Source: Caulobacteraceae bacterium (lineage in GTDB: Bacteria > Pseudomonadota > Alphaproteobacteria > Caulobacterales > Caulobacteraceae). Taken from it: a stretch of DNA of 32,014 nt. A program made the translations under genes and the position numbers. Shown here piece by piece: positions 4,760 to 14,612 of this stretch. The stretch lies in NCBI GenBank assembly GCA_947475845.1, contig CANJMO010000028.1:1-32014 (forward strand), read 5' to 3'. Within the stretch, counting starts at the first letter, position 1, and the number at the start of each line of letters is the position of its first letter. The notes beneath the pieces are model-generated. The model was not told the DNA's origin, made no database searches, and saw nothing but the letters and a program-made list of their open reading frames with translations.

Positions 4760-5175
4760 TCGAGATCACCGACCGGCTGTCCATCGAGGACGACGAGGTC
4801 GAGATCCGCCATGCCCGCGCCAGCGGTCCAGGCGGCCAACACGTGAACAAGACCTCCAACGCCATCGAGCTGCGCTTCGACGTGCGCGGCTCGCCGTCCC
4901 TACCCCAGGAGGTGCGTGAGCGGCTGGAGAAGCTGTCGGGCAGCCGTCTGACCCTGGAGGGCGTCCTGGTGCTGTTCGCCCAGGGCTCGCGCTCGCAGGA
5001 GATGAACCGGCAGGATGCCATCGAGCGGCTGGTGGAACTGATCAAGCTCGCCACGATTCGGCCCGAGCCGCGCAAGGCGACCCGGCCGACCTATGCCTCC
5101 AAGCTGCGCCGGCTGGAAGGCAAGGCGACCCGCTCCGGCGTCAAGGCGCGGCGCGGCAAGCCCTCGCTGGATTAG
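4756..5175 (+). CDS. arfB: Alternative ribosome-rescue factor / peptidyl-tRNA hydrolase ArfB (YaeJ)
   Basis: ArfB releases nascent chains from ribosomes stalled on mRNAs without a stop codon. The N-terminal release-factor-like domain carries the catalytic GGQ at residues 26-28 in SGPGGQHVNKTSNAIELRFD, and the C-terminal tail from about residue 105 is strongly basic (YASKLRRLEGKATRSG), as required to enter the empty mRNA channel. Length of 139 residues is almost the same as E. coli YaeJ. The ATG at 4756 overlaps the SRAP stop, so I prefer it over the longer open frame upstream. It converges with a small minus-strand gene with a four-base overlap of stop codons. Confidence 0.94.
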   Translation: MIEITDRLSIEDDEVEIRHARASGPGGQHVNKTSNAIELRFDVRGSPSLPQEVRERLEKLSGSRLTLEGVLVLFAQGSRSQEMNRQDAIERLVELIKLATIRPEPRKATRPTYASKLRRLEGKATRSGVKARRGKPSLD

Positions 5176-5456
5176 TCCTGCGCGGGGGCCTCGGCCACCA
5201 GGTCGCCGAAGTGCAGGTCCTCGTCCGGGGACAGGCGTTTTTCCGCCCATTCCAGCACCAGCTGTGCGTCGGCCATCCCGACGCGCAGGCTCACCGAGCC
5301 ATGCGCCTCGTCGTGCCAGGCCTGGGCGATGGCCGCCTTCAGATCGGCCACCAAACTCGGCTCGCCGGAGGCCTCGCACTGGCGTTCCAGGATGGTGATG
5401 AGTTCGCTCACCAGCACGAGGCTGGCCTCTTCGCTGATGTTCGTCAGTTTGGTCAT
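5172..5456 (-). CDS. Hypothetical small soluble protein
   Basis: A 94-residue acidic, mostly helical protein that I do not recognise. It lacks a signal peptide, membrane segments or cysteine motifs, and it shares a four-base stop overlap with arfB. The ATG at 5456 gives MTKLTNISEEASLVLVSEL and no better start is visible. Codon usage is like that of its neighbours. About 228 bp of non-coding, AT-richer sequence lies upstream, which probably holds its promoter, though I could not pick a convincing pair of boxes. Confidence 0.6.
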   Translation of the reverse strand: MTKLTNISEEASLVLVSELITILERQCEASGEPSLVADLKAAIAQAWHDEAHGSVSLRVGMADAQLVLEWAEKRLSPDEDLHFGDLVAEAPAQD

Positions 5457-5684
5457 GGCGTAGCGCCTGCGGGCGTGGGGCGCGCGGCGTCCTCGAAACT
5501 GGGGTGATTACCGTTGGCGCTTAGGTATGGAAGTCGACTCCGGAACTCCAGCTAAAGCGGCCCAAAATGGGTCAAACAACTAAGCTTTGGAGCGATTCCG
5601 GGACAATTCGGGATGTTTTTGTCGCTTCACGCCGGGATTCCGGAGCGTTTCCGCGAATTTTCCCCTCAAGATCGACTCGCCGCC

Positions 5685-6161
5685 TCAAGGCTTCGTGGCG
5701 GCCTTTTCTGAGATTTGGGCCATCGTTTCCATCGCCGCCGTCATGCGCTTGATCTCGCGCGTGGCCAACAGGACGAAATCACGGTTGCCGCGCTGATCGA
5801 TCAGGGGCGGAAAGGTGTGCACGCCTTTGCTGTCCTGGTGCAGGTGCCCGGCGGCAACCAGAACGGCGATCTTGCGGCGCACGGTCTCGCGGGGCAGGCC
5901 GGTGGCCTCGGCGATGGCGCGGGCGCTGATGGCGTGGTGCTCGTCCTCCGAGAACGGCCCGGCATTGTCGAGCAAGGTGTTGAGATCGTCGCTGCGCAAC
6001 ACTCGGCCGATGCTGGCGATGGCCACCGACCAGTAGATCAGGATCGCCTCGTAGTCGTGACCGTAGGTGTCGCCCGCCGCGCGCATTATGCGCAGCAGGC
6101 CCTCCACGGCGATCAAGCCGTTGGCCGCCACCAGCCCCCGCGGTGTTGGCTCGCTGTCCAT
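5685..6161 (-). CDS. Helix-turn-helix domain protein
   Basis: A 158-residue protein with a C-terminal winged-helix-like segment at about residues 80-110 (AISARAIAEATGLPRETVRRKI followed by AVLVAAGHL), similar to the Crp/GntR class of DNA-binding helices. The N-terminal 75 residues are helical and not recognisable; they could form a dimer or ligand domain. The start at 6161 is supported by GAGGA five bases upstream. The gene lies 68 bp downstream of corA on the same strand. The target is unknown; regulation of itself or of corA would be a guess. Confidence 0.7.
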   Translation of the reverse strand: MDSEPTPRGLVAANGLIAVEGLLRIMRAAGDTYGHDYEAILIYWSVAIASIGRVLRSDDLNTLLDNAGPFSEDEHHAISARAIAEATGLPRETVRRKIAVLVAAGHLHQDSKGVHTFPPLIDQRGNRDFVLLATREIKRMTAAMETMAQISEKAATKP

Positions 6162-6229
6162 GATGTTCCTCGGCAGGCTCGCCCCGTACCGGCCCCACTA
6201 TTCCAAAGATCGGCGTTCGATGGAAACGC

Positions 6230-7177
6230 TTAAAGCCAGCCCTTCCATTTGAACCAGCCGAGCGGGATCAGGGCGCTGATGACGATCACGGCGATGCCGA
6301 ACGGATAGCCAAGATGCCATTCCAGTTCGGGCATGAACTTGAAGTTCATACCGTAGACGCCGGCCATAAGGGTCGGCGGGATGCCGACGATGGACGCCAC
6401 CGTCAGCACCTTGAAGATGTCGTTCTGCGAGATGGTGATGAAGCCCAGCACCGCATCCAGCAGGAACTGCACCTTGTTGGCCAAGTGCCCCTCGTAGTCG
6501 TTGAGCGAGACGATGTCCTGGCGCACCGCCTTCAGCCGCGCCGCCAAGGCGTCCGGGGCCGGCGCATGCAGCACCTCCAGCACGAACGGCACGATCCGCC
6601 CCACCCCCAGCAGCACGTCGCGGATATGAGACAGCCGCTCGCCGATCCGCCCGACCTTGGACAGGGTGGCGCGCTGGAACAGCTCCGACTTGTTGGCGTC
6701 CCGCTTGCGGTTCTTCTGGTGGAAGATGCCGCGCGAGACCCCGTCCAACTCGGCGGCCGCAGCCTCGAGCAAGTCGGCGACCCGGTCGATGATCGACTCG
6801 AACACACAGGTGAACACGCCCAGGCTGGTGATCGCATCGCCGTCTTCCAGGGCGTGCCGGGCGGCCGTATCGAAGGCCATGAACTTGTCGAAGCGCACGG
6901 TCAGTAGCCGCTTCTCGCTCAGCACGAACCCCACCGGCGACAGGTGCGGCGCCTCGACGCCGGCCATCAGCGGCGTGGACAGATACAGGGCGTGGTCGAT
7001 GCGCTGCAGGCGGCTCGACTGCTCGATGGCGCTGAGGTCGTCGCGGGTCGGCGCCTTGAAGCCGAAAGCCGCCTCGGCGGCCGCGATCTCATCCTCTGTC
7101 GGCGATCTGAGATCGATCCACACCGCCTCGTGCAGGCGCTCGGGCGTGTCGGCGGAGGCGGGATAGGCGGTCAGCAT
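6230..7177 (-). CDS. corA: CorA-family magnesium/divalent-cation transporter
   Basis: CorA forms pentameric inner-membrane channels for Mg2+ and sometimes Co2+, Ni2+ or Zn2+. The large N-terminal cytoplasmic domain is followed by two C-terminal transmembrane helices. The first ends in the diagnostic YGMNF filter motif, preceded by VASIVGIPPTLMAGV, and the second ends in a basic tail (GWFKWKGWL). Length from the ATG at 7177 is 315 residues, normal for the family. An in-frame start at 7225 would add 16 residues without family similarity. The motif alone cannot separate Mg2+ importers from ZntB-type transporters. Confidence 0.92.
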   Translation of the reverse strand: MLTAYPASADTPERLHEAVWIDLRSPTEDEIAAAEAAFGFKAPTRDDLSAIEQSSRLQRIDHALYLSTPLMAGVEAPHLSPVGFVLSEKRLLTVRFDKFMAFDTAARHALEDGDAITSLGVFTCVFESIIDRVADLLEAAAAELDGVSRGIFHQKNRKRDANKSELFQRATLSKVGRIGERLSHIRDVLLGVGRIVPFVLEVLHAPAPDALAARLKAVRQDIVSLNDYEGHLANKVQFLLDAVLGFITISQNDIFKVLTVASIVGIPPTLMAGVYGMNFKFMPELEWHLGYPFGIAVIVISALIPLGWFKWKGWL

Positions 7178-7241
7178 GGCGACTCGACTGGCTGTGATGA
7201 CGCTGGGAACGTGCGCGCGCTGCAAAGGCGCCGCAAGTCGC

Positions 7242-7730
7242 TCAGCCGTCGGTCATTTCGTGGCGCATCAGGCGGCGGCGCAGAGCCATGGCGTCCCACC
7301 AGGCATTGTGCTCGACGGCGCCCGCGACATCGGTGGGATAAGAAAAGACCCGCCGAATATCAAAGCGCAGACGGTCGACAGGCGCCTTGCGGCCAGGGCT
7401 GAACATCAGGGCCGCGCAGAACAGGCGCACGTCGTCTGGCCAGTCGGCGATGATCTCGGGATCGGGATCGCCGAACAGGAAACCGGCGATCGCCCGCGCG
7501 CCGTCGATCTGCCCGACCTCGCGCACCTCCACATCGTTCGGAACCGCACGCAGGTGGGGCTCGACATGGACCGCCACCCACGGATCGATGACCTCGCCCG
7601 GGTCATACAACAGATAGAGGCTGTGGCCGTCCTCGCGCACCAGGGCCAGCGACAGCAGAGGGCCGCCGAAGCCGTTGAACTCCGTATCCAGAAAATAACG
7701 CAGTGGACTGTTCCCCAACCAAGGGGGCAA
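7242..7730 (-). CDS. DEDDh-type 3'-5' exonuclease (RNase H-like fold)
   Basis: A 162-residue protein with the acidic catalytic pattern of DEDD exonucleases: LDTEFNG near the N-terminus (D and E), an aspartate in IADWPDD at mid-protein, and HNAWWDAMALR near the C-terminus (H and D). The size and motif spacing resemble the single-domain exoribonuclease group typified by Mycobacterium Rv2179c; substrate cannot be told from sequence. No ATG precedes the first motif. The best start is TTG at 7730 or possibly TTG at 7718, and neither has a good Shine-Dalgarno sequence, so the N-terminus is uncertain by a few residues. Confidence 0.82.
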   Translation of the reverse strand: MPPWLGNSPLRYFLDTEFNGFGGPLLSLALVREDGHSLYLLYDPGEVIDPWVAVHVEPHLRAVPNDVEVREVGQIDGARAIAGFLFGDPDPEIIADWPDDVRLFCAALMFSPGRKAPVDRLRFDIRRVFSYPTDVAGAVEHNAWWDAMALRRRLMRHEMTDG

Positions 7731-7946
7731 GGGTGGCAGCTATTTAGGACGAGGCAATGACGGCGCCCCGCAAACCGGCTTGCGGCCGCGCTTTGGACAT
7801 TCCGCGCGTTGGCCTGAACGCACAAAGGCGCCGGTAAGGCCGTAGCGATAAGCTCTGGGGTTTGACGCCGCGACGCAACAGGTCCACCACCGGGTCTTAC
7901 CCGCCCGTTGCGTTCCGGCGGCCCGGGCCGCCCGACGGAGATCCGC

Positions 7947-8636
7947 ATGCGCAAGACAGTCCTGGCCGCGATTCTGCTGGTGTCCGCGCCCCTGGCCCGC
8001 GCCCAGGAGGGGCCCAACAACCTTTTCATTAGCCCGTGCGGCGAGCCCTTCGTCGCCCCGGCCAGCGCACCCTACCCGATCGTCAACTGGTTCAACGGCG
8101 CCGACGCCAACCACGACGGCAAGCTCGACGCCGTGGAATTCACCAATGACAGCGAACGCTTCTTCGCCGTGCTCGACCGCAATCACGACGGCTTCATCGA
8201 TTCGCGCGAGGTGAACATCTACGAGCATGTCTTCGTGCCCGAGATCCTGCCCCGCAACGGCACCGAGGCCGAAGGACTGATGATCCGCGTGGCGATGCAG
8301 TTCGACGCCGGCGGCGCCGGCTATGCCGCCGGCGGGTCCAACGTGGCGCAGGGCGCTCAAGGCCCTCTGGACGTGAGCCCGCCGGTCGATCCGAACGCCC
8401 CGCCGCGCCAGAGACTGGATTCGAATCAGGGCGCTGTGCCGTTCAGCCTGTTCGCGGCGCCCGAGCCGGTGCGCGCCGCCGACCGCAACCTGGACGGCAA
8501 GGTCTCGCAACAGGAATTCCGCAACCTGGCCGCGCGCCGCTTCGCTTCCCTGGACACGACCATGCGCGGCTATCTGCTGCTGGCCGAATTGCCCCAGACC
8601 GACTTCGAACGCGCGGCCAAGGCCCGGCGGAAGTAG
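7947..8636 (+). CDS. Secreted EF-hand domain protein
   Basis: A 229-residue protein with a signal peptide (MRKTVLAAILLVSAPLARA), so exported. Three EF-hand-like calcium loops are readable: DANHDGKLDAVEF, DRNHDGFIDSREV and, after a proline- and glycine-rich linker, DRNLDGKVSQQEF. Each loop has acidic or polar residues at the expected coordinating positions and a final E, which points to calcium binding in the periplasm. The ATG at 7947 is chosen because CGGAG sits six bases upstream and the signal peptide starts there. The gene ends 11 bp before the 3' end of the minus-strand tRNA. Function is unknown; such proteins are frequent in Caulobacterales. Confidence 0.82.
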   Translation: MRKTVLAAILLVSAPLARAQEGPNNLFISPCGEPFVAPASAPYPIVNWFNGADANHDGKLDAVEFTNDSERFFAVLDRNHDGFIDSREVNIYEHVFVPEILPRNGTEAEGLMIRVAMQFDAGGAGYAAGGSNVAQGAQGPLDVSPPVDPNAPPRQRLDSNQGAVPFSLFAAPEPVRAADRNLDGKVSQQEFRNLAARRFASLDTTMRGYLLLAELPQTDFERAAKARRK

Positions 8637-8647
8637 CGGTCGCTGCG

Positions 8648-8721
8648 TAGGCCCGGCTGGACTCGAACCAGCAACCAGACCGTTATGAGCGGCCGGCTCT
8701 AACCAATTGAGCTACGGGCCC
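8648..8721 (-). tRNA. tRNA-Ile2 (anticodon CAU)
   Basis: A full cloverleaf can be folded: acceptor GGGCCCG paired to CGGGCCT (with a terminal G1-U72 wobble), D-stem GCTC/GAGC, anticodon stem GGCCG/CGGTC with loop CTCATAA, and T-stem GCTGG/CCAGC with loop TTCGAGT. The anticodon is CAU. The initiator's unpaired position 1-72 feature is absent. The C4-G69 and C5-G68 acceptor pairs are known TilS identity elements, so I call this isoleucine (lysidine-modified, reading AUA) rather than elongator methionine. CCA is not encoded; A73 is followed by CGC. The Met/Ile decision is an inference from these pairs. Confidence 0.85.
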
Positions 8722-8738
8722 TATGCAGCGCGTCCCGG

Positions 8739-8767
8739 TTAGCATGCACGCCGGGCGGCGCAAACAA
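8739..8767 (-). promoter_or_regulatory. Candidate promoter of the tRNA gene
   Basis: On the minus strand TTGTTT (8767-8762) and TGCTAA (8744-8739) are separated by 17 bases and end about 17 bases before the tRNA 5' end. The -10 resembles the GCTA-type box described for Caulobacter housekeeping promoters. Only the position and boxes support it. Confidence 0.4.
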
Positions 8768-8785
8768 CGCAGGGCCGCTTAGCCT

Positions 8786-8911
8786 CTAGTCCTTGTCCTT
8801 AAGAGTCTCGCCGCGCGGCGTGGTCACCTTGACCATCAGCCCGTACAGGCTGCCGTCCTTCATCGGATGCAGGGTGATGGCCATCTTGTCGCCGACCTTG
8901 GCCCAAGGACC
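8786..8911 (-). pseudogene. C-terminal remnant of a DUF6152-like gene
   Basis: Reading the minus strand from about 8911 to the TAG at 8788-8786 gives 41 residues, including KVGDKMAITLHPMKDGS and then YGLMVKVTTPRGETLKDKD. This strongly resembles the C-terminal end of DUF6152-type exported proteins (GDK.T...HP.KDGS.GL...VT.P.G.TL). No start codon with a ribosome site or signal peptide precedes it: immediately upstream the bases belong to the methyltransferase coding sequence on the other strand. The 5' two-thirds of the gene is therefore missing. Family assignment is from memory of the C-terminal pattern and should be confirmed. Confidence 0.6.
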
Positions 8912-8919
8912 GCCCGCTG

Positions 8920-9435
8920 ATGATCCTCGACGTCGGCAGCGGCTACGGCGACATGCTGCGCCGGGTCAGGCGCTGGACAGCGGCGCGCGGTCTAGAGGTC
9001 AAACTGACCGGCCTCGACCGCAACCCGTGGTCGGAGCGCTCTGCCGAGCGGGTGCTCGGTTCATCCGACATCGCCTTCGTCACCCAGGACCTGTTCGACT
9101 ACCGAGACGGCGCCGACGTGGCCATCTCGTCCCTGTTCGCCCACCATCTGACCGACACCGAACTGATCCGCTTCGTGGAATGGCAGGAGGCTAACGCCCG
9201 GGTCGGCTGGTTCATCAACGACCTGCGCCGCCACCCGTTCAGCTACTACGGCTTCGCCCTGCTCTCGCGTCTTATGCTCTGGCACCGTTTCGTGCGCCAC
9301 GATGGGCCGGTATCGATCAGCCGCGCTTTCAGCCGCGAGGACTGGGGTAAGCTCCTGGCCACGGCCGGGGCCAAGGCCGCCCGCATCGAGCCCTGGTTCC
9401 CGTTCCGCCTGTGCGTGTCGCGGGTGCGCGGATGA
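8920..9435 (+). CDS. SAM-dependent methyltransferase, N-terminally truncated
   Basis: The coding similarity begins abruptly at RPLMILDVGSGYGD, the SAM-binding motif I, which normally lies about 50 residues into this family. It continues with TGLDRNPWS (motif II), FVTQDLFDY and the ISSLFAHHLTD segment. The frame opens after a TGA at 8875-8877, with no ATG, GTG or TTG before the ATG at 8920, so the 171-residue product lacks the N-terminal helices. AAGGA at 8905-8909 might serve as a ribosome site by chance. Immediately upstream on the other strand is the DUF6152-like tail, which marks a deletion or rearrangement junction. The stop overlaps the downstream FAD oxidoreductase start (ATGA). The truncated enzyme may be inactive. 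Confidence 0.75.
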   Translation: MILDVGSGYGDMLRRVRRWTAARGLEVKLTGLDRNPWSERSAERVLGSSDIAFVTQDLFDYRDGADVAISSLFAHHLTDTELIRFVEWQEANARVGWFINDLRRHPFSYYGFALLSRLMLWHRFVRHDGPVSISRAFSREDWGKLLATAGAKAARIEPWFPFRLCVSRVRG

Positions 9436-10574
9436 GCGGCGTCGTCGTCATCGGCGGCGGGCCTGCGGGCGCGGCGAGCGCGATCCTGCTGGCGCGTGCC
9501 GGGCGAGCGGTGACCCTGCTGGAGCGCGAGAGCGGCCCTCACGACAAGGTCTGCGGCGAATTCATCAGTCATGAAGCGGCCGCTTATCTCGCGGCGCTCG
9601 GTGTCGATCTTTCCGCCCTCGGCGCCGTACCGATCCGCCATACGCGGCTGGCCGGCCGCCACGGCGAGACCCGTATCGCTCTGCCTTTTGCCGCCAGCAG
9701 CCTATCGCGGCGGCGGCTGGACGAAGCACTCCTGCAACTAGCCGCCGATGCGGGCGTGGAGGTCCGACTGGGCATCCGGGCCCGGCGCATGGCCCGCGAC
9801 GGGGACGGCTGGCGTATCGGCGTCGACGACGGCGCCCTGCACGCGTCCAGCGTGTTCCTGGCGGTGGGCAAGCACGATCTCAAGGGCTGGAAGCGGCCGC
9901 CCGGCCTACAAAGCGATCTGGTCGGCTTCAAAATGCACCTGCGCCTGGCGCCCGCCGAAGCTGCCGCGCTCGACCGCCATGTGGAGTTGATCCTGTTCCC
10001 CGGCGGCTACGCCGGGCTGGAGCCAATCGAGGACGGCTTGGCCAATCTGTGTTTGCTGGTCCGCCGCTCAGCCCTTCCCAAGGGCGAGGTTTGGCCCGAG
10101 CTGTTGGCGCTGATACGGACCGCCTGCCCCTTGCTGGATCGGCGCCTCGAAGGCGCCCAGCCGCTCTGGCCCAAACCCCTGGCGATCACCGCGATCCCCT
10201 ACGGCCACGTTCAAAAGTCCGCCAACGGCGTCTGGCGCCTCGGAGACCAGGCGGCGGTGATCCCGTCGTTCGCCGGCGACGGCATGGCCATCGCCCTACA
10301 CAGCGCCCACGTCGCGGCGGCGGCTTATCTGGAAGGCGGCACGGCGGAAACCTATCAACGACGGATGGCGCGCGATCTGGGGCTTCAGGTGCTCGGCGCG
10401 ACCCTGCTGTCCCAGGCCCTGGTGCGCCCTTGGGGCCAGGCCGCCCTGACCTCGCTCGCACGGCTGCAGCCGCGGCTGATGACCGCCGCGGCCGCGCGCA
10501 CGCGCATTTCGGAAAAGGCCCTGGAGCGGACCTTGCCGCAGCCTAGAGGGCTATCGTTTCAATCTCGCCCCTGA
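9432..10574 (+). CDS. NAD(P)/FAD-dependent oxidoreductase (geranylgeranyl-reductase / UbiH-like)
   Basis: A 380-residue flavoprotein. The Rossmann dinucleotide loop VVVIGGGPAGAASAILLARAG opens the protein, followed by LLERE and DKVCGEFIS, typical of the geranylgeranyl-reductase-like group. The second FAD motif GDQAAVIPSFAGDGMAIAL lies near residue 270. It starts at the ATG overlapping the methyltransferase stop, giving a coupled pair. In many proteobacteria such a methyltransferase-oxidoreductase pair follows a type III polyketide synthase; no such synthase is present here, and the sequence upstream is the truncation scar. It ends by overlapping the convergent ilvE 3' end by 32 bp. Substrate unknown. 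Confidence 0.85.
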   Translation: MSGVVVIGGGPAGAASAILLARAGRAVTLLERESGPHDKVCGEFISHEAAAYLAALGVDLSALGAVPIRHTRLAGRHGETRIALPFAASSLSRRRLDEALLQLAADAGVEVRLGIRARRMARDGDGWRIGVDDGALHASSVFLAVGKHDLKGWKRPPGLQSDLVGFKMHLRLAPAEAAALDRHVELILFPGGYAGLEPIEDGLANLCLLVRRSALPKGEVWPELLALIRTACPLLDRRLEGAQPLWPKPLAITAIPYGHVQKSANGVWRLGDQAAVIPSFAGDGMAIALHSAHVAAAAYLEGGTAETYQRRMARDLGLQVLGATLLSQALVRPWGQAALTSLARLQPRLMTAAAARTRISEKALERTLPQPRGLSFQSRP

Positions 10575-11436
10575 CCATCTGGGAATACTCTTCCATGAGG
10601 TCCAGGGTGATGTTGCCGGGCTTGAAGCGGTGCTCGGCGATCTCCGACACCGGGGTCACCTCCGCCGCGCTGCCGGTCAGGAACACCTCGTTGAAGGTCG
10701 ACAGCTCATCCGGATGGATGTGCCGCTCGATCACTTCCACACCCTTGCGCTTGGCCAGGGCGATCACCGACTGACGGGTCAGGCCGTTCAGGAAGCAGTC
10801 CGGCGTCGGGGTATGGATCGCACCGTCGCGCACCAGGAAGATGTTGGCGCCCGTGGACTCGGCGACATAGCCGCGCCAGTCGAGCATCAAAGCGTCGGCA
10901 TAGCCGTCCTTCTCCGCGGCGTGCTTGGAGATGGTGCAGATCATGTACAGGCCCGCCGCCTTGCTCTCGGTCGGGGCGGTGAACGGCGCCGGACGGCTGT
11001 ACTTGGCGCGGGTCAGGCGGATGCCCTTGGCGCGCTCTTCCGGCTTGAAGTAGCTCGGCCAGTCCCATGCGGCCACGGCCACATGGATCTTGGTCAGCTG
11101 GGCGGCCACGCCGATCTGCTCGGGTCCGCGCCAGGCGATCGGGCGCAGATAGCAGTCCGACAGCCCCATCTTCGCGGCGGTTTCCTTGCAGGCGCGGTTG
11201 AGTTCCTCCACGCTGTAGGGAACCTCGAAGTCGAGGATGTTGGCGGAGCGGTGAAGACGCTCGGAATGTTCCTGGAGCCTGTAGATCTCACCATTGTACA
11301 TGCGCGCGCCCTCGAACACCGCCGAGGCATAGTGAAGAGCGTGCGTCAGTACGTGCACCTTCGCCTCGCGCCAGGGTACAAATTCCCCGTCCAGCCAGAT
11401 CCAGCCGTCGCGATCGTCGTAGGGCACTAGTGACAT
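10543..11436 (-). CDS. ilvE: Branched-chain amino acid aminotransferase IlvE
   Basis: This PLP enzyme catalyses the last step of leucine, isoleucine and valine synthesis and the first step of their breakdown. From the ATG at 11436 (AAGGAG nine bases upstream) the protein has 297 residues. Fold-type IV features are LDGEFVPWREAKVHVLTHALHY at the N-terminus, FEGARMY, the PLP lysine K159 in TESKAAGLYM (same number as E. coli IlvE), YVAESTGANIFLV, and LTGSAAEVTPV. An in-frame upstream start at 11505 is less likely because it would place the ribosome site inside the gene. It is divergent from the MarR gene and convergent with the FAD oxidoreductase. Confidence 0.94.
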   Translation of the reverse strand: MSLVPYDDRDGWIWLDGEFVPWREAKVHVLTHALHYASAVFEGARMYNGEIYRLQEHSERLHRSANILDFEVPYSVEELNRACKETAAKMGLSDCYLRPIAWRGPEQIGVAAQLTKIHVAVAAWDWPSYFKPEERAKGIRLTRAKYSRPAPFTAPTESKAAGLYMICTISKHAAEKDGYADALMLDWRGYVAESTGANIFLVRDGAIHTPTPDCFLNGLTRQSVIALAKRKGVEVIERHIHPDELSTFNEVFLTGSAAEVTPVSEIAEHRFKPGNITLDLMEEYSQMVRGEIETIAL

Positions 11437-11461
11437 CGTGAAATACTCCTTCCGTCCGGAC

Positions 11462-11490
11462 CTTAGACCCCCGACAAAGGGCATCGTCAA
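11462..11490 (-). promoter_or_regulatory. Candidate ilvE promoter
   Basis: On the minus strand TTGACG (11490-11485) and TCTAAG (11467-11462) are exactly 17 bases apart, with the predicted transcription start about 20 bases before the ilvE ATG. The -35 matches the consensus well. It lies in the short divergent region shared with the MarR gene, so that regulator could act here; no clear palindrome was found. Confidence 0.55.
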
Positions 11491-11511
11491 CCGCCGCAAA
11501 GTCATAGGACA

Positions 11512-11994
11512 ATGACCACCGATACCCGCCTGATCCTGCGTGAAGAGGAGCTGGACGCTTCAGTGGAACTGTTCGTCCTGGCCGAGGCCGCGCTGTGGTC
11601 GACGGCCGAGGCGGCTCTGCAAGGCCATCCCTCCGGGCTTGGACGCGGACACTACCGCGCCGCCCTGCTGCTCAAGCGCCGGCCCGGCATCGGCGTGCAG
11701 GAACTGGCGCAACTCACGGGCCTTTCCAAGCAGGGCGCCAGCCGCGTGCTCACCGACCTGGAACAGGCCGGCTATGTCGAGAAGGCCGCCGGCAAGGCCG
11801 ACGGACGCCGCAAACCCGCCCAGCTGACCGCCGACGGCCGTCTGTTCGAGGCCCGCGTGTCGGAGCGCCTGCGCGCGCACTTGGCCCTCGCTTATCGCTC
11901 TGGTGGGCTGGAATCGGTGGCGGGCGCCCGGCGCATCCTGGCCGCTGTCGCCGGCTCGCGCCTGCAGGTCGGGACCGGCGGAGACGCCGAGTGA
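11512..11994 (+). CDS. petP: MarR-family transcriptional regulator (PetP-like)
   Basis: A 160-residue winged-helix regulator. The DNA-binding part is visible at about residues 55-105: LKRRPGIGVQELAQLTGLSKQGASRVLTDLEQAGYVEK followed by the wing DGRRKPAQLTADG. Flanking helices form the MarR dimer arms. The gene overlaps the following response regulator as GTGA, and the pair divergent from ilvE matches the petP-petR arrangement known in Rhodobacter capsulatus and other alphaproteobacteria. The symbol rests on this context and overall similarity, not on function. Promoter signals are weak; only a short AGGA stands just before the ATG. Confidence 0.82.
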   Translation: MTTDTRLILREEELDASVELFVLAEAALWSTAEAALQGHPSGLGRGHYRAALLLKRRPGIGVQELAQLTGLSKQGASRVLTDLEQAGYVEKAAGKADGRRKPAQLTADGRLFEARVSERLRAHLALAYRSGGLESVAGARRILAAVAGSRLQVGTGGDAE

Positions 11995-12704
11995 GCGAGC
12001 GCCATCTCCTGATCGTCGACGACGACGACCGCATCCGCGGCCTGCTCAAGGAATACCTGGCCCGCGCCGGCTTCCGCGTGACCAGCGCCCCGGACGCGGC
12101 GGGCGCCCGGCGCATGCTCAACGCCCTGGATTTCGACCTGATGATCCTCGACGTCATGATGCCGGGCGAGGACGGCCTCAGCCTGACCCGCTCGATCCGC
12201 GCCGAGGACGGCCCCAAGGCCCACACCCCGATCCTCATGCTGACCGCGCGCGGCCTGGCCGAAGACCGCATCGAGGGCCTGACCAGCGGCGTCGACGACT
12301 ATCTGCCCAAGCCGTTCGATCCGCAGGAACTGCTCCTGCGCATCGAGGCCATCCTGCGCCGCACCGGCGGGCGCAAGGCGCGGGTCGCCGAGCGCCTCTC
12401 CCTCGGCCGCTGCGCGCTCGATCTCGGCCGCGGCGAACTGCTGCGCGACGAGGCGCCCGTGCGCCTGACCGAGGCCGAATCCAACCTGCTGCGCCGCCTG
12501 GCCCAGACCCCCCACGTCGCCGTCGATCGCATGGAGCTGGCCCAGGGCGCCGGGCCGATTCCCGAGGTCATCGACGGGGCCGGGCGCGCGGTGGACATCC
12601 ATGTCACCCGCCTGCGCCGCAAGATCGAAGCCGATCCCAAGAACCCGCGATACCTGCAGACGGTGCGAGGCGTCGGCTATATGCTGGCTCCCGATGAGAC
12701 TTAG
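11991..12704 (+). CDS. petR: OmpR/PhoB-family response regulator (PetR-like)
   Basis: A two-domain regulator of 237 residues starting with GTG that overlaps the MarR stop. The receiver domain has the acidic pocket D10-D12, phospho-acceptor D54 in LMILDVMMPGEDG, T85 in LMLTARG and K107 in YLPKPFDP. The C-terminal winged helix ends with VDIHVTRLRRKIEADP and QTVRGVGYM, as in OmpR/PhoB proteins. The gene is followed with an 11-bp overlap by its likely kinase. In R. capsulatus petR was described next to the cytochrome bc1 operon; here petABC is about 11 kb away in the same direction. The regulon cannot be read from this sequence. Confidence 0.9.
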   Translation: MSERHLLIVDDDDRIRGLLKEYLARAGFRVTSAPDAAGARRMLNALDFDLMILDVMMPGEDGLSLTRSIRAEDGPKAHTPILMLTARGLAEDRIEGLTSGVDDYLPKPFDPQELLLRIEAILRRTGGRKARVAERLSLGRCALDLGRGELLRDEAPVRLTEAESNLLRRLAQTPHVAVDRMELAQGAGPIPEVIDGAGRAVDIHVTRLRRKIEADPKNPRYLQTVRGVGYMLAPDET

Positions 12705-14043
12705 CCGCGCTTACCGCAGGCTGTTTCCGCGCTTTCTCAAGCGCCGGCTGCCGACCACGCTGTTCGGCCGTTCCCTCTTGATCATCATCCTGCCCATCGC
12801 GGTGATGCAGATCGCGGTCACCTACGTATTCTTCGACGCCAACTGGCAGACCGTGACCAGCCGCCTGTCCGAGGGCCTGGCCGGCGACGTCGCTTGGGCG
12901 GTGGACAGTTACAAGCAGGATTCCAGCCCCGTCTCCCTCGCCCGCATCGCCGACCGGGCGGAGCGCTCGCTCGACCTGTCGATCGTCCTGCAGCCGGGAC
13001 GCGACGCCCTGCCTGAGCGTACCCGGTTCAACTATTTCGAGGCCATCGATCGATCCCTCAACCAGGCTCTGTCGGACCGGCTGAACGACCCCTACTGGTT
13101 CGACACCACCCGCTACCCCGCCTACGTCGATATCCGGGTGAAGGTGAAGCAGGGCGTCCTGCGCATCATCGCCCCGCGCGACCGCGCCTTCGCCACCCAG
13201 GGCCATATCTTCGTCATGTGGGTGGCCGGGGCGACCTTGGTGCTCACCACCGTGGCGGTGCTGTTCATCCGCAACCAAGTGCGGGCCATCGAGCGCCTGG
13301 CCGAGGCGGCCGAGGCCTTCGGGCGCGGCGGCGACGCCGACTTCAAGCCGCACGGCGCCCGCGAGGTGCGCCAAGCCGCCCAGGCCTTCCTCGACATGAA
13401 GGAGCGCCTGCAGCGCCATATCGAACAGCGCACCGCCCTGCTCGCCTCCGTCAGCCACGATCTGCGCACGCCGCTCACCCGCCTGAAGCTCGAGCTGGCC
13501 CTGGCCGAGCCCAGTCCAAGGCTGGAGGAGATGAAGCTCGATTTGGCCGAGATGGAGCACATGATCGACGAATACCTCGCCTTCGCCCGCGGCCAGGGCG
13601 GCGAGAGCGTCGAGACCGTACGGGTGCTCAGCCTGATCGAGGAGGTGTCGGAGGGCGCCAAGCGCGCGGGGGCCCAGGTCAGCGTCGATGTCGACCCCGC
13701 CCTGACCACCGCTGTCCGTCCCAACGCCTTCAAGCGGGCCATCTCCAACCTGGTGATGAACGCCGCCGTGCATGGCGAGCGGGTCGAAGTCGCCGCCCGT
13801 GCAGGCCCTTCGGGCGGCGTCGAGATCATGGTCGACGACAACGGCCCCGGCATTCCCGCCGAACGCTACGAGGAAGCCTTCCGCCCGTTCAGCCGGCTCG
13901 ATGAAGCGCGCAACCAGAACGAAAAGGGCGTTGGCCTCGGCCTCGCCATCGCCCGCGACATGGCCCGCGGCCATGGCGGCGACGTGACCCTGGATCGCAG
14001 TCCGCTCGGCGGCCTGCGCGCGGTCGTGAGGCTGCCGGGATGA
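12694..14043 (+). CDS. EnvZ-type sensor histidine kinase
   Basis: A 449-residue inner-membrane kinase, the presumed partner of the upstream response regulator. Transmembrane helix 1 is at about residues 26-46, a periplasmic sensor region follows (47-170), and helix 2 is at about 172-193. HAMP comes next, then the phosphorylated histidine H255 in ASVSHDLRTPLTRLKLE. The ATP-binding boxes are NLVMNAAVHGE (N-box), DDNGPGIP (G1) and GVGLGLAIARDMARGHGG (F/G2). I chose the ATG at 12694 because the longer frame reads the response-regulator C-terminus out of frame. Start and stop both overlap neighbours (11 bp and ATGA), so translation is coupled. The signal sensed is unknown. Confidence 0.93.
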   Translation: MRLSRAYRRLFPRFLKRRLPTTLFGRSLLIIILPIAVMQIAVTYVFFDANWQTVTSRLSEGLAGDVAWAVDSYKQDSSPVSLARIADRAERSLDLSIVLQPGRDALPERTRFNYFEAIDRSLNQALSDRLNDPYWFDTTRYPAYVDIRVKVKQGVLRIIAPRDRAFATQGHIFVMWVAGATLVLTTVAVLFIRNQVRAIERLAEAAEAFGRGGDADFKPHGAREVRQAAQAFLDMKERLQRHIEQRTALLASVSHDLRTPLTRLKLELALAEPSPRLEEMKLDLAEMEHMIDEYLAFARGQGGESVETVRVLSLIEEVSEGAKRAGAQVSVDVDPALTTAVRPNAFKRAISNLVMNAAVHGERVEVAARAGPSGGVEIMVDDNGPGIPAERYEEAFRPFSRLDEARNQNEKGVGLGLAIARDMARGHGGDVTLDRSPLGGLRAVVRLPG

Positions 14044-14612
14044 AGCACGCCGTCGTCTTGCTCGCGGCGCTGGGGATCCTGTCGGCTTGCAAACGCCCGG
14101 CGCCCGAACCCACGACGCCGGTCGATGCGCCCACCAGCGCGCCAGTGTCCGATTATCCGCTGGTCGAGCCCCGGGAGCCCGGACCCCCCGGCGGCCTGCC
14201 CGACGATCGCACCCCGCTCTCCGAAGCGCCTTTCACGCCCACCAGCGCCCAGGGCGCCGCTGACGTGATGCAGGTCTATTACGCCCAGATCGGCCAACAC
14301 GAATACGCCAAGGCCTGGGCGCTCTGGAGCCAGGGCTCGCCCGCCCGCGCGGCCAGCGGCGAGGCCTTCACGGCAAGCTTCGGCGCCTATCTGCAGTACA
14401 ACGCCCACGTCGGATCGCCCGGCGCCATCGAAGGCGCGGCCGGTTCGCTGTTCATCGAAGTGCCCATCCAGGTCTACGGACGTCTGAAGACCGGCCAGGA
14501 ACTGCACCAGCTGGGCAAGGCGACCCTGCGCCGTTCCAATGACGTGCCGGGGGCCACGCCCGAACAGAGGCTGTGGCGCATCGACCGGATCGAGCTGACG
14601 ACTGTCCCTTAG
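14040..14612 (+). CDS. Putative lipoprotein coupled to a two-component operon
   Basis: A 190-residue protein with a type II signal: charged MKH, hydrophobic stretch and lipobox LSAC with Cys17, followed by a proline-rich linker to about residue 65. The C-terminal 120 residues (VMQVYYAQIGQHEYAKAWALW onward) resemble in pattern an alpha/beta cone-type periplasmic domain, but I do not recognise the family. The start overlaps the kinase stop as ATGA, making it the fourth gene in an overlapping chain (MarR, regulator, kinase, lipoprotein). It could feed information to the sensor or be a target of the operon; this is inference. It converges with the retropepsin gene with a four-base overlap. Confidence 0.8.
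   Translation: MKHAVVLLAALGILSACKRPAPEPTTPVDAPTSAPVSDYPLVEPREPGPPGGLPDDRTPLSEAPFTPTSAQGAADVMQVYYAQIGQHEYAKAWALWSQGSPARAASGEAFTASFGAYLQYNAHVGSPGAIEGAAGSLFIEVPIQVYGRLKTGQELHQLGKATLRRSNDVPGATPEQRLWRIDRIELTTVP

Follow-up and report, generated by a model that had tools for sequence, protein, structure and literature searches.

Evidence for a single deletion of about 6 kb joining remnants of a DUF6152 gene and a methyltransferase gene in a Caulobacteraceae genome

The window, a stretch of 32,014 nucleotides that forms contig C28 of the draft genome of a Caulobacteraceae bacterium (G000; 2.65 Mb in 101 contigs, with an estimated completeness of 98.67%), carries the 3' end of a DUF6152 gene joined to a methyltransferase gene that is truncated at its 5' end. 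We hold it to be very probable, at roughly 93%, that this arrangement arose in the lineage of this genome through one deletion of ~6.0 kb between the last 37 codons of DUF6152 and codon 57 of the methyltransferase. Such a deletion would have removed everything from the 5' part of DUF6152 through to methyltransferase codon 56, including a type III polyketide synthase (PKS) and a FUSC-family permease, and would document the clean loss of a polyketide cluster that is widely shared and whose undeleted state is preserved in two sister species. Deletions at short homologies, with gene remnants left behind, are a general feature of bacterial genome evolution; in the present case, too, both ends of the loss appear to lie in unrelated genes that have a couple of bases in common, and in this there is nothing unusual, the event being otherwise ordinary deletion and genome decay.

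The junction and the undeleted locus

The genus is represented by three genomes, G000 and its sisters G001 and G002. In both sisters DUF6152 and the methyltransferase lie on one contig, ~6 kb apart and in the order and gene orientation of the window, and the undeleted locus reads tRNA-Met, full DUF6152, ~6.0 kb of genes, full-length methyltransferase and FAD oxidoreductase; both gene parts and the intervening DNA are thus present in each. A first-pass annotation, made from the window alone, had read the locus as two 5'-truncated half-genes joined by one deletion that took the DUF6152 5' part, the methyltransferase N-terminus and the genes between, and had guessed a type III PKS among the latter. 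Both half-genes are indeed present and each matches its own arm of the sister loci, all the parts said to be lost are found in G001 and G002, and the PKS is among them. The comparison with related genomes that it proposed showed both sisters to carry, in the same order, a full DUF6152, genes in between and a methyltransferase of greater length, and neither a relative with the same short methyltransferase start nor a tail unrelated to DUF6152 was encountered. Two half-genes in raw sequence can thus be enough for a reader to recognise a true deletion and to name one of the genes that went with it.

Contig C117 of G002 aligns to the window in two arms, 8642-8900 (86% over 259 columns, E 1e-79) and 8899-14039 (83% over 5,157 columns, E 0), and on these alignment scores chance is excluded as the source of the matches. 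G001 gives the same join, with arms at 8647-8900 (77%) and 8899-9784 (75%), where its contig ends. With each of the sisters the best single breakpoint falls equally at 8898, 8899 or 8900; the arms accordingly have 2 bp (TG) in common, and the junction, which belongs to neither strand, is placed at 8898..8900; the best breakpoint matches 172 and 159 of 200 bases in the two comparisons, one arm alone at most 121 and 119. Relative to G002 the net loss amounts to 5,963 bp and relative to G001 to 6,014 bp, the stretch lying strictly between the matched arms being 2 bp shorter in each sister. As only 2 bp are shared, illegitimate, short-homology recombination would be the likely route. Long direct repeats at the break sites were considered and rejected, as a direct-repeat search of both sister loci gave no family linking these sites among those listed (20 of 25 families in G002, 20 of 37 in G001). 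A sigma-70 consensus scan of 8600-9000, which by its nature says little, gave no promoter in the junction region.

The DUF6152 remnant occupies 8786..8899 on the minus strand, with 37 codons at 8789-8899 and the stop codon at 8786-8788, and was recognised by protein and DNA matches to G002. Counted by eye, 37 of 37 residues are identical to the DUF6152 C-terminus in G002 and 34 of 37 in G001. The first-pass annotation was right in calling the tail DUF6152-like and in having both genes cut at one place; its 41 codons and its cut at ~8911 are replaced by 37 inherited codons and a join at 8898-8900, since homology to the DUF6152 arm stops at 8900 and the last four "tail" codons, up to 8911, are therefore not DUF6152 and consist of antisense methyltransferase DNA. 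The 41-aa tail scores 12.1 bits against DUF6152 (PF19649; E 0.22, model positions 77-97 of 98), below the curated cut-off of 27, so Pfam alone would not have revealed the remnant; the full gene of G001 scores 104 bits. The window tail is thus the C-terminus of a gene of a family with 16 matches in G000, and it differs from such genes in that just 37 codons are left, which fall below the cut-off on their own. DUF6152 genes are present in 17 of the 60 genomes compared, G000 included, with 16 copies in G000, 18 and 17 in the sisters, 28 in G014 and 42 in G019; the remaining 43 are without any match, the family being strongly multiplied in some of the others. A literature search for DUF6152 found no paper.

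A tRNA-Met gene (CAU) lies nearby at 8647..8721 on the minus strand, as identified by ARAGORN, Rfam and the alignments. The distance of ~65 bp first given between scar and tRNA holds for the stop codon of the tail (64 bp), the scar itself being ~177 bp away. A role of the tRNA in the deletion, which had been hinted at, was rejected: tRNA-Met also adjoins DUF6152 in both undeleted sisters and, as an inherited neighbour, it is no evidence of cause.

The lost genes and their absence from the genome

The gene content of the lost stretch is given here in coordinates of the G002 locus (L038). From the DUF6152 side, the first item is the 5' part of DUF6152, after which come a secreted-looking protein (11045-11872), two membrane proteins of DUF6644 type (10516-11010 and 10011-10511), a second secreted-looking protein (9171-10007), a small ORF (8757-9095), the FUSC-family permease (7528-8640), the type III PKS (6382-7497), in which both Chal_sti_synt domains are over cut-off, and methyltransferase codons 1-56, from a start at 6389 chosen from the alignment to the cut at 6221. 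"Secreted-looking" refers to N-termini judged by eye. A Pfam scan of 10 proteins, a mix of G001 and G002 copies, placed one membrane protein from each sister over the DUF6644 cut-off and found no family for one secreted-looking protein per sister or for the G001 small ORF; a PADLOC scan of six sister proteins gave no match.

The PKS was not found elsewhere in G000, either with the type III PKS C-terminal domain (PF02797), which has no match there, or in a search with the G002 PKS protein. PF02797 is matched in 8 of 11 hand-picked genomes, once each in G001, G002, G014, G008, G009 and G019 and twice each in G018 and G032, and as G003 and G022 are also without a match, absence of the PKS alone is not remarkable in the family. 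The 6.1-kb sister segment gave 70 matches in G000 (40 of 507 first-look candidates scored), of which the best beyond the tail is 75% over 509 bp on contig C3, the others being weaker or short. This stretch matches a deleted secreted-looking gene as closely as the orthologous DNA matches G001. A second match to the same gene, at 67%, lies ~3 kb away with no other substantial part of the segment beside it, for which reason we read the C3 stretch, on sequence grounds, as a paralogue and not as the segment moved. Relocation of the segment within G000 was accordingly rejected, the scored candidates giving DNA matches at paralogue level only, as was the idea that a DUF6152 half-gene running off the end of contig C32 is the lost half, its sequence being that of a different paralogue.

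The draft state of the genome, in 101 contigs, raises the question of an assembly chimera, in which two separate parts of an intact locus would have been misjoined in the contig and the 6-kb segment dropped from the assembly; the 2 bp common to the arms could occur at a join in chimeric reads as well. Against this, the order and orientation of the sisters are preserved on both sides of the join, neither sister has a repeat family linking the break sites among those listed, the estimated completeness is high and yet no type III PKS was found, and the half-gene at the contig end belongs to another paralogue. Judged on the assembled contigs a misassembly is unlikely, and we would give the chimera very little weight. 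It is somewhat less improbable, while still doubtful, that the deletion is real and present in only part of the source population, which is compatible with a single deletion and concerns its spread: such a mixture would be consistent with one consensus sequence, but no PKS-bearing contig was found in the assembly.

Direction of change

The methyltransferase is found in 6 of the 60 genomes, G000 included, and its relatives in G001, G002, G014, G018 and G032 are 234-237 aa long, with starts chosen from their alignment. For every one of the best 80 of 153 methyltransferase relatives in GTDB genomes, the match to the 234-aa sister protein begins no later than residue 12, in a list that was ranked by match to the full-length query and in which truncated genes are perhaps under-represented. 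Within flanks of up to 9 kb, some of them cut by contig ends, 76 of the 80 loci show a PKS ahead of the methyltransferase and 75 show the oxidoreductase; the four loci with no PKS in the fetched flank are L108, L128, L132 and L153. Since the 80 are all close to full length and 76 of them are preceded by the PKS, the long methyltransferase and the PKS are shown, as far as gene sequences and neighbourhoods go, to be old and the short form in the window to be derived.

The reverse order of events, in which the short form is ancestral and an insertion of 6 kb in the sisters provided both genes with new 5' ends, could appeal to the fact that only 2 of the 80 loci, those of the sisters themselves, showed DUF6152, FUSC and the secreted-looking and membrane genes next to the PKS. 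It is nonetheless hardly conceivable, as the methyltransferase 5' end (80/80) and the PKS (76/80) are common to distant genera, so that the outgroups speak against it on the methyltransferase side, and the insertion would need to restore conserved parts in both genes simultaneously.

The remaining methyltransferase and oxidoreductase

After the deletion, which we continue to prefer, the methyltransferase would have been left with 171 aa from an ATG at 8920 (8920..9435, plus strand; identified as 5'-truncated by comparison with relatives). Homology to the methyltransferase arm begins slightly upstream at 8899, so that former codons 57-63 in sister numbering are preserved at 8899..8919 on the plus strand, before the present start, and the frame is closed further upstream by a stop at 8875-8877. 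The sequence LDVGSGYG, which we take to be the glycine-rich motif, follows directly after the ATG. As residues 1-56 of the sister protein are missing, the gene is no full-length member of its family; as a candidate class I SAM-dependent methyltransferase it scores 26.3 bits against Methyltransf_25 (cut-off 27) and 104 bits against NF004851 (cut-off 243), and the one structural relative found by profile matching is 3dtn_A (E 0.00024). The window sequence was aligned with 44 others chosen by hand from the 80 loci and G002, and conservation reaches at least 90% at 59 positions; 14 of these lie in the lost residues 1-56, and the other 45 are all intact in the window. In the G002 protein as modelled by AlphaFold2 (mean pLDDT 95.6), helices are confidently predicted at 21-37 and 42-53, both of which are lost. 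From the loss of two predicted helices and of 14 of the 59 conserved residues, the 171-aa protein is probably inactive.

No relaxed selection was seen on the methyltransferase remnant, in what is a weak test. Over 170 shared codons dN/dS is 0.28 against G002, 0.21 against G001 and 0.29 between the sisters, values that average the whole time since divergence and say little on the period after the deletion, and residue changes unique to one genome number 16 in the window and 15 and 17 in the sisters. We infer from the lack of visible decay, in a comparison of three genomes of the genus, that the event was probably recent and that the short methyltransferase is too young for decay to be seen.

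The oxidoreductase (9435..10574, plus strand; alignment and Pfam), the last gene of the former cluster, has an intact ORF. It is FAD-dependent, scoring 36.8 bits against FAD_binding_3 (cut-off 22), and shares 75% identity with the G002 gene at the corresponding position. Over 140 codons comparable in all three genomes it has 17 unique changes in the window against 11 and 7 in the sisters, which might point to relaxed selection, yet unique synonymous changes are in matching excess (22 against 8 and 14). Of the former cluster the window therefore has the oxidoreductase, no PKS and a methyltransferase that is not full-length, and the polyketide pathway would be dead in G000. That selection maintains the shortened methyltransferase and the oxidoreductase in a role unrelated to the polyketide, such as a reaction on a resorcinol or quinone obtained from neighbours, seems to us improbable. 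Annotators should not count the two genes as a working pathway.

Operons of a type III PKS, a methyltransferase and an FAD oxidoreductase have been reported in planctomycetes, and in cyanobacteria as hidABC, and the planctomycete PKSs that were tested reportedly produced alkylresorcinols (PMC10896814). The same three gene kinds are adjacent in G001 and G002; in the window, by contrast with these operons, the PKS is gone and the methyltransferase truncated. The sisters have the order PKS-methyltransferase-oxidoreductase and the published operon has methyltransferase-oxidoreductase-PKS (PMC10896814). As the order differs and the comparison covered kinds of gene, the likeness would be one in kind only.

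Further differences between the genomes were noticed around the locus. The 3' side of tRNA-Met (window 8637-8647) is variable, with an EF-hand gene there in the window and a tyrosine integrase adjoining the tRNA in G002 (L038:12445-13545), and another G002 contig (C142:26827-26848) carries 22-23 bp that repeat the 3' end of the tRNA. Integrase and copy together form the pattern expected of an integrated island. Beyond the tRNA, 3.25 kb in G001 and 7.07 kb in G002 have only matches of less than 100 bp in the other two genomes. Window positions 4828-8637 are colinear with G002 contig C142, on which other genes come after the EF-hand gene, some with homologs on G000 contigs C44 and C62; as colinearity ends there, a second synteny break lies ~260 bp from the deletion scar. 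Farther downstream, 569 bp of the window (14040-14608), with a 190-aa ORF that has no Pfam match, find no match in G002, where the sequences matching the two flanks are directly adjacent.
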